Part shown: positions 31,446 through 32,640 of the stretch, in pieces
Layout of the letters: every line of letters starts with the position of its first letter
How positions within the stretch are numbered: position 1 is the first letter of the stretch
Assembly: GCF_003635115.1 (NCBI RefSeq)
Contig: NZ_RBXJ01000001.1
Coordinates: 868,001-932,000, forward strand
DNA length: 64,000 nucleotides
Reading direction: 5' to 3'
From: Microbacterium sp. AG1240
GTDB taxonomy: Bacteria; Actinomycetota; Actinomycetes; Actinomycetales; Microbacteriaceae
Notes under the pieces: generated by a model
The model's input: only the letters and a program-made list of their open reading frames with translations
Database searches by the model: none
Told to the model about the DNA's origin: nothing
Program-made: the position numbers and the translations under genes

Positions 31446-31531
31446 GCGTTCCACACTAGCGGCGGGCTCCCTCTCGGCCTTGGAGGGTGCGCACAACGAC
31501 TCGCCGAATCCCCTGTCGTCCAGCGCACGTC

Positions 31532-31603
31532 GGTGAGTTCGGCGCGATTCGGTGCGTATTGCTGTTCAAGGTCACCGAAGAGCGCCGAACTGACCGATTC
31601 GGG
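31532..31603. repeat. Hairpin element A, 3' side of the DUF559 gene
   Basis: Outer arms 31536-31545 and 31582-31591 (10 bp) and inner arms 31548-31554 and 31573-31579 (7 bp) are perfect; GGT/ACC at 31532 and 31595 extend the stem past one mismatch. It contains CGATTCGGTGCGT (31545-31557) and, starting 50 bases later, CGATTCGGG (31595-31603), both shared with element B at the same spacing. Confidence 0.8.
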
Positions 31604-31612
31604 TGGGGCGGG

Positions 31613-32458
31613 TCACCGCGCGAGGTGAAGATTCTGCGCCATGGCGGCCAGGATGGTGGCCTCCACCCGGGGCCAGTCGTCGACGATCTCGCGGTAATCG
31701 AAACGCAGCACGGTGTATCCGAGCAACCGCAGCCGGCGGTCGTGGGCGATGTCGGATCGACGTTGTCTCGGATCGGAGTGGTGGGCGAAGCCATCGATCT
31801 GCACGACGAGCCTCGCACCGATGAGCCCGTCGACATGATGGCCGTCGATCTTGACCTGCTGTCGTACCAGGACGCCTCGCCTCCGCATCCGTGAGACGAA
31901 GTAGGTCTCGAGGCCGGAGTGCGACAGAGCGGTGGTCTCGTCGCGGAGCGCCCGAGCCCGCTCGCCGCGCCAGTCGATCGCCCCGATGCTCTCGACAGTG
32001 ATGAGGCGGGCGCGCACCGCTGATTCCCAGATCGCGAGGGCTTGTTCGTGAGGACGACAGACCGCGACGGCGGCGAGCATGTTCTCGACCGCATCGATGA
32101 GAAGCCGCCGGGGGCGCGCAATGATGCCGGCGCCCCAGTGTCCGTGTGCGGCGGGTGGTGACCTGCGCGCTCCTCTTGGCACCGCCAGGTGGACCGTGGG
32201 GTCGTCGTCGGCCCGCCAGAGCGTGCGCAGCGACGCCGCGGAGACGCACGTCACCGCGCAGCCGGTTTGGGCGGCGACCAGCAGTTCCGGGGGTGCGCCG
32301 GGAAGCAGCACCCAGTCGCGGCCCGCTCGCACCAGCCTTTCCCTCTGGACGGCCGCACGAATGGCGTCGGGGCGCCACCCCGCTTCGCGCACCTCCGCAA
32401 GATGGATATAACCTCGCGCGGCGACGAGTGGCCGTAATGATCTCGTGCTCGAACCCAT
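31613..32458 (-). CDS. DUF559 (Vsr/restriction-like nuclease fold) protein
   Basis: A 281-residue protein from the ATG at 32458; longer starts up to 32548 are possible. The N-terminal half (LRPLVAARGYIHLAEVREAGW, then RLVRAGRDWVLLPG) looks like the winged-helix region of AbiEi-type antitoxins. The C-terminal DUF559 domain, related to Vsr endonucleases, has VKIDGHHVDGLIGARLVVQIDG, then DIAHDRRLRLLGYTVLRFDYREI; the Asp and the VxIDG strand suit a PD-(D/E)xK-like site. Such proteins are frequent in Actinobacteria but their role is not settled. It is flanked on both sides by copies of the same hairpin element. Confidence 0.8.
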   Translation of the reverse strand: MGSSTRSLRPLVAARGYIHLAEVREAGWRPDAIRAAVQRERLVRAGRDWVLLPGAPPELLVAAQTGCAVTCVSAASLRTLWRADDDPTVHLAVPRGARRSPPAAHGHWGAGIIARPRRLLIDAVENMLAAVAVCRPHEQALAIWESAVRARLITVESIGAIDWRGERARALRDETTALSHSGLETYFVSRMRRRGVLVRQQVKIDGHHVDGLIGARLVVQIDGFAHHSDPRQRRSDIAHDRRLRLLGYTVLRFDYREIVDDWPRVEATILAAMAQNLHLAR

Positions 32459-32570
32459 CCGCCCACCGTTGCGGCGTGCTCGCGGTGTGCGGATGCAGGA
32501 GGGGGCGAATGGGGAGAGATTCTCTCGCAGACCGGCTGGGGAGGACACGTCCCCTCTTTCCTCTCTGCGG

Positions 32571-32640
32571 TGAAATCGGCCCGATTCGGTGCGTGTCTAC
32601 CTGGACGCGCACCGACTCCGGCCGATTTCAACGATTCGGG
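32571..32640. repeat. Hairpin element B, 5' side of the DUF559 gene
   Basis: Outer arms 32571-32581 and 32620-32630 (11 bp) are perfect. Inner arms 32586-32597 and 32604-32615 pair over 12 bp with one G-T wobble around a 6-base loop. CGATTCGGTGCGT is at 32582-32594 and CGATTCGGG at 32632-32640, the same 50-base spacing and orientation as element A. The outer stem differs from A on both strands in a matching way. Confidence 0.8.

Follow-up and report, generated by a model that had tools for sequence, protein, structure and literature searches.

A DUF559 gene in the Microbacterium window analysed here (the whole stretch of DNA, 64,000 nt long) stands between two copies of one palindrome. An earlier note on this DNA had read the arrangement as a self-contained cassette, comparable in layout to REP elements with their RAYT transposases or to a homing unit. 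The locus raises the question of whether the gene and the palindromes belong together, which of them moves, and what the protein would do at the palindromes.

The gene and its protein

The gene lies on the minus strand at 31613..32458, with accD-like and birA-like neighbours (acyl-CoA carboxylase subunit and biotin ligase). Its longest open frame reaches a GTG at 32548; the ATG at 32458, which gives a protein of 281 aa, is the more likely start. The C-terminal part of the protein matched Pfam DUF559 (PF04480; 39.7 bits, gathering score 20.6, 4.8e-10). Up to E 1, the only Pfam matches were DUF559, MTES_1575 and AbiEi_4, and an HUH/Y1 tyrosine transposase domain was absent from them. According to PMC3710099, it was a large fusion protein that gave the MTES_1575 REase its name. 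An NCBIfam search with the protein gave no match, and an Rfam search of the window returned nothing at gathering score.

In the predicted structural model, a winged helix is followed by a Vsr-fold nuclease domain. The best solved relative of the nuclease domain (31622..31921, minus strand, about aa 180-279) was the catalytic domain of I-Bth0305I (Z 13.3, rmsd 2.3, 96 aligned), and Vsr matched with Z 10.3 and 9.7. The model, built from four sequences, is of middling quality (mean pLDDT 59.5) and unreliable in the middle; its better parts are the two terminal domains, the ten-residue blocks of the nuclease domain having pLDDT 56-91. Of the earlier comparison with a homing unit, this result supports the catalytic fold, which is of the homing-endonuclease type. 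The N-terminal domain (32294..32458, minus strand, about aa 1-55) is weakly AbiEi-like: the PADLOC AbiEi profile matched this part with E 3e-4, and 6y8q matched the N-terminal model with a probability of 0.85 but an rmsd of 11.5. Pfam AbiEi_4 was below cut-off in the window protein, where it was placed in the nuclease part, and was found in three of ten homologs, above cut-off in one. No DUF1814 toxin gene is among the two neighbours of the gene at the window locus.

The acidic residues E184, D210 and D236 are conserved in all 95 aligned homologs, and D222 in 92. The dN/dS values of nine orthologous pairs, drawn from seven DUF559 genes, were 0.12-0.35, indicating purifying selection. Since dN/dS is low and the acidic residues are kept, the DUF559 proteins appear to be maintained and are probably active enzymes.

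Two matching palindromes at the ends of the gene

Hairpin A (31530..31597, plus strand, 68 bp) lies 3' of the gene and hairpin B (32568..32633, plus strand, 66 bp) 5' of it; both are imperfect palindromes. Hairpin A carries TCGGTG at 31530 and 31549, CACCGA at 31573 and GACCGA at 31592. The two elements are spaced as the earlier note had described: the 13-mer CGATTCGGTGCGT starts at 31545 in A and at 32582 in B, a start-to-start distance of 1037, and the 9-mer CGATTCGGG begins exactly 50 nt after it in both. Within their own genome (G000), A and B are the only places where the exact 13-mer is followed by CGATTCGG. The outer stems do pair perfectly, as had been claimed, and each full palindrome has several unpaired positions.

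The changes matched between the arms had been taken as the signature of a selected structure. We analysed 15 copies of the A/B family from three genomes, using 500 shuffles and slid versions for comparison. Paired cells made up 84.6%, against 79.2% in shuffles (0/500 reached 84.6%), and the covariation score was 0.192 against 0.110 (0/500), with slid versions at 0.096 or less; both measures lay above every slid version and all 500 shuffles. Cells changed on both sides numbered 23, against 14.7 in shuffles (3/500). Two of the five measures, the pairs changed on both sides (264/500) and the further pair types (174/500), were within the shuffled range, so that the claim of selection holds by percentage paired and covariation score and not by these two counts. 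Across the 15 copies the motif cores are (nearly) invariant, and the spacer positions vary, often together with their partners. Because the copies within one genome would all be seen by one protein and yet the spacers covary, the pattern would speak for a folded hairpin rather than for an ordinary operator in double-stranded form.

Bracketing of DUF559 genes across Microbacterium

We sampled 95 DUF559 loci from 36 genomes, including all six loci of G000; these are 95 of 167 matches, taken mostly from the top of the list. Upstream and downstream flanks matched with more than 40 bits at 69/95 loci and in none of 197 control windows, and with more than 35 bits at 75/95 loci and in one of the 197, the controls being overlapping windows slid along the 64-kb window of one genome, at positions regardless of genes. 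Every sampled genome (36/36) had at least one locus over 40 bits. Against mismatched flanks, whose top scores were due to host genes in common, 70/95 loci were above the 99th percentile, and for 59 of the 95 the locus's own downstream flank was the single best of the 95, about one being expected. The A/B pair itself, at 36.5 bits, is under both the 40-bit and the 99th-percentile lines, and is one of the 26 loci with 40 bits or less. The 69 pairs over 40 bits comprise 53 direct and 16 inverted ones; the "same orientation" reported for A and B is correct for these two and for the 53, and does not extend to the 16.

The bracketing by A and B is one case of a broad DUF559 pattern in the genus, and both the proposed link between hairpin and DUF559 gene and the REP/RAYT-like layout gain support from it. 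On our reading, the gene together with A and B would belong to a diverse system of two parts that is present in Microbacterium and probably in other Actinomycetes as well. Among loci sampled class-wide, 11/29 scored over 40 bits; all control windows come from the Microbacterium genome, six of the class-wide contigs are short, and some of the loci over 40 bits (L209, L219) may not be hairpins. No matching hairpin pair was found at the Mycetocola locus L166. At four loci (L054, L069, L109, L112) two like hairpins stand in tandem on one side of the gene, recalling small arrays.

Such palindromes might be ordinary transcription terminators or insulators that are alike on both sides by chance. A short GGATGCC...GGCATCC palindrome does recur in several loci (L058, L089, L130), and the pairs of L058 and L130 score and yet resemble ordinary terminators. 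However, pairs over 40 bits were found in 0/197 control windows, and a motif repeated at 18 or 19 nt with gene-specific sequence is foreign to terminators; we consider this explanation very improbable.

For the motif repeat we examined 81 hairpins, each 54 nt or longer, at 55 loci. The left arm repeated a 6-mer exactly at a distance of 18 nt in 16/81 and of 19 nt in 13/81, and at 17 or 20 nt in 0/81; shuffled arms gave about 0.6%. From the counts at 18 and 19 nt, each arm shows a gene-specific motif two times in about a third of the hairpins; in the rest the repeat is imperfect or missing. In the A/B family the repeated 6-mer is TCGGTG. Most hairpin pairs have a private sequence of their own, which differs from gene to gene. 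The two hairpins of one locus matched with a median of 52.7 bits (17/21 over 40, at loci with both detected), against a median of 16.6 bits for hairpins at one site in different species (6/87 pairs over 40), which diverge though their proteins are about 50% identical. Hairpin similarity rises with protein identity (0/2000 permutations), weakly overall (Spearman 0.18), and the four pairs with N-terminal identity above 60% all have similar hairpins, each pair coming from one site. Plain linkage could also give such a correlation; the telling evidence is the match within a locus.

Residence, loss and reversal of the genes

Most of the loci (87/95, in 22 groups) are at a site common to another sampled locus, sites being grouped by single linkage with one matching flank sufficient. 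Proteins at one site had an identity of 0.53 when their genes pointed the same way (156 pairs) and of 0.50 when they pointed in opposite ways (41 pairs), against a background of 0.31 (4260 pairs), and both gene orientations were seen in 4/22 site groups. Of 72,556 plasmid records, 2 bore a relative detectable by tblastn, 50,697 phage records yielded none, viral contigs gave no relative of the window protein, and none of 25 loci had a tRNA gene as insertion target. Because of site residence a freely moving cassette was rejected, and the self-contained cassette of the earlier note, taken as mobile, is not supported: a unit that moves to new sites, the trait of insertion sequences, is not what these shared sites and the near absence from plasmids and phages display.

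We surveyed the accD-birA site in the 30 genomes whose BirA matched best. A DUF559 gene is present there in nine, 13 have accD within 300 nt and no DUF559 gene, and eight have neither accD nor DUF559 inside 1.5 kb. Among the 13, L148 retains a hairpin-like remnant (by eye), L160 has another palindrome and L156 is masked; no palindrome was found in the other ten. From the site, orientation and empty-allele data, the DUF559 genes appear to have been at their sites for long, with frequent loss and an occasional reversal.

Long residence at a site, the I-Bth0305I fold and the gene-less hairpin-like sequence at an orthologous site (L148) would also be consistent with a homing-like or addictive selfish gene, whose nuclease would cut gene-less hairpin alleles and be held at its site by repair from the occupied allele. 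Against this, occupied alleles have intact hairpins, and self-cutting would require a protection rule; moreover, fully empty alleles are common, as at the 10/30 accD-birA sites with accD close and no DUF559 gene or palindrome found. We hold this explanation to be improbable.

Empty sites do exist, as the earlier note had proposed to check, and the one read in detail fits deletion better than insertion. At C2:138 kb, G000 has a cassette and its relative G224 is empty, and one edge of the cassette coincides with the outer side of a hairpin, which is how a classical transposon with hairpin ends might appear. But the empty allele keeps a 14-nt hairpin end and the distant relatives G188, G134 and G037 have a homologous cassette at the site. 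Because of these two observations loss is the likelier cause of the difference, and insertion was set aside. Together with the shared sites and the scarcity of plasmid or phage relatives, they leave the transposon, a reading already disfavoured, as the least probable of all those weighed here.

Two further sites were noted. In G089 (L236), downstream of the gene that flanks the C2:138 kb cassette in G000, a palindrome with a 19-nt motif repeat was seen by eye at a site where other species have a cassette. G224 holds at C1:1780628-1783882 a decayed relative of the L038 cassette, with about 96 nt of the gene left between matching flanks in which the positions of both hairpins are included.

Gene-less copies of the A/B family

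A covariance model was built from the A and B copies in three genomes, with the gene-less copy s1 of G000 added, these training copies being found again, and nine genomes were searched with it; 150 first-look candidates were scored per genome, and weaker matches are outside the count. Besides A and B, G000 contains four copies: s1 (C4:203122), s2 (C4:212677), s3 (C1:940819) and s4 (C2:412224). G224 has orthologs of all four, and G050 has one intact copy, s2, its s1 and s3 being decayed and its s4 site rearranged. Clear gene-less copies (E <1e-3) were found in 3/3 genomes with the A/B pair and in 0/6 other relatives, a small and related sample; four of these six had weak covariance matches with E 0.006 to 0.45. 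Copies are scattered, a pattern which the earlier note had set against a link to DUF559 genes, but clear ones are confined to three of the nine genomes, those with A and B.

No DUF559 gene was found in 2-kb stretches around s1-s4. When the four were tested as debris of a lost local cassette, they matched none of the 95 sampled loci. The element is absent at the s4 site in G155 and at the s3 site in G290; in the other combinations of site and relative, one flank or none was readable. No target-site duplication came to light, and recent dispersal was not seen, because G000 and G224 have the four sites in common. It is the hairpins, it seems, that disperse, the gene staying at its site. Two other hairpin families also have gene-less copies in G224; one of them, the L038 family, has two there, one of which (L193) has flanks like a DUF559 site of other species.

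A fifth gene-less match in G000, C3:487590 (E 0.008), was dropped before counting because it lies inside a long frame (an ABC transporter ATPase by eye) and has a poor right arm; its G224 ortholog C2:109816, which at E 1.5e-4 would pass 1e-3, was dropped too. In the s4 region of G050 (L291/L180, C3:281-282 kb), a DUF559 gene about 1 kb away has a long-loop palindrome upstream (by eye), and because of this gene s4 may be what is left of a local cassette since lost. In G050 the window gene itself (L165:4091-4972) looks frame-shifted near its C-terminus, possibly through an assembly error, and A and B are intact beside it. With the decay of s1 and s3 in this genome, the frame-shift is a first hint that gene-less copies may go with an intact cognate gene.

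The positions of the gene-less copies, judged by open frames, bear on the main rival, an AbiEi-like autoregulation. On this account the winged helix would act at the upstream palindrome as a repressor of its own gene, the downstream copy would block antisense transcription or allow looping, the gene-less copies would be the operators of a small regulon, and the nuclease would have a separate defence or toxin activity. As described in PMC7319586, AbiEi binds its own promoter at two 23-bp inverted repeats and Rv2827c does so at four, and neither bound the repeats of the other. The weak N-terminal resemblance to AbiEi agrees with such a role, and the gene-less copies at divergent and promoter-proximal positions favour it: s2 lies between divergent genes, and s1 between co-directional genes, 37 bp upstream of a start codon. 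In contrast, s3 and s4 lie tight between convergent genes, 13-20 bp from their stop codons, most loci keep a matching downstream hairpin, and the spacer pairs covary though pairing is needless in a double-strand operator. Downstream copies, convergent sites and pairing favour a REP-like reading, and we regard AbiEi-like autoregulation as unlikely, though deserving more weight than the other alternatives.

Known systems and a proposed mechanism

The closest parallel to this arrangement is that of RAYT and REP, which resembles it in having a gene between two palindromes, cognate gene-less palindromes elsewhere and joint diversification. According to PMC2817692, RAYT genes are always between two REPs, coevolve with them and evolve fast, and the Stenotrophomonas cases have 37-427 perfect palindrome copies per genome. 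The DUF559 loci of the window and of most sampled relatives have the same layout of two matching palindromes, which are presumably cognate to the protein. The parts differ. RAYT is an HUH tyrosine transposase, whereas the DUF559 protein is predicted to combine a Vsr fold with a winged helix; its palindromes are mostly 60-88 nt long with a repeated motif, and lack the GT(A/G)G head of REPs, which was absent directly before A and B when their flanks were inspected by eye on both strands. Gene-less copies of the A/B family number four, where REPs reach tens to hundreds, a genome has several paralogs with mostly different hairpins, and the pairs are mostly direct, unlike the inverted REPs.

With the type IV toxin-antitoxin system AbiE the window locus shares a predicted N-terminal winged helix and inverted repeats beside its own gene. 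It has, however, a C-terminal nuclease where AbiEi has its antitoxin domain, no adjacent toxin at the window gene, and repeats that stand at either end of the gene and also occur in other places. The likeness to I-Bth0305I, a Vsr-like homing endonuclease, is in the catalytic fold; the DUF559 gene differs in occupying conserved intergenic sites, as far as seen not an intron or intein, with palindromes at both ends. Integron attC sites, too, are imperfect palindromes next to a single gene, each arm having two boxes, and resemble these hairpins in that respect, although here the box sequence varies by gene. A DUF559 domain is also found in the Vsr-like protein VsrA of Caulobacter, for which T:G mismatch repair after cytosine methylation has been proposed; the text of PMC12907096 available to us does not mention flanking palindromes.

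Since a DNA-binding domain and a nuclease are joined in one protein whose gene has private palindromes at both ends, the protein would most simply be predicted to recognise these palindromes. We propose a dedicated nuclease-palindrome system that works in the manner of RAYT and REP with an unrelated enzyme and unrelated palindromes, a proposal for and against which we find the chances evenly balanced. In this system the winged helix would recognise a private motif (here TCGGTG) that occurs about four times in a palindrome of ~60-90 bp, and the Vsr-fold nuclease would act on the palindrome, probably in its extruded hairpin form. Its action would keep the two flanking copies alike, would now and then flip the gene between them, and would now and then seed gene-less copies in other intergenic sites. 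The small number of such copies (four), the 26/95 loci at 40 bits or below and the two covariation measures within the shuffled range count against this system.

More tentatively, and with somewhat less than even confidence, we suggest that these loci may form a new class of element: site-resident, fast-diversifying winged-helix/Vsr-fold nucleases, several per genome, each with private hairpins that it would recognise, keep alike, flip around and copy in trans. This would be an equivalent of REP/RAYT with a separate origin in Actinomycetes, where it would derive from a nuclease of the homing type.

Significance

DUF559 genes were found in 39/39 genomes of the genus and in 41/59 genomes of the class that were searched. 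We found no open-licence paper that ties them to flanking palindromes, and the parts of PMC2817692, PMC7319586 and PMC3710099 consulted do not mention such palindromes. Our findings point to an undescribed partnership of protein and palindrome. If each DUF559 gene has its own hairpin pair, these genes would offer a large natural set of protein-DNA specificity pairs and a handle on the role of such Vsr-fold proteins. If the proposed system is true, it would be a second, independent case of a protein with dispersed cognate palindromes, and a new lineage would become available for the question raised by REP and RAYT, why such pairs are kept over such long times.
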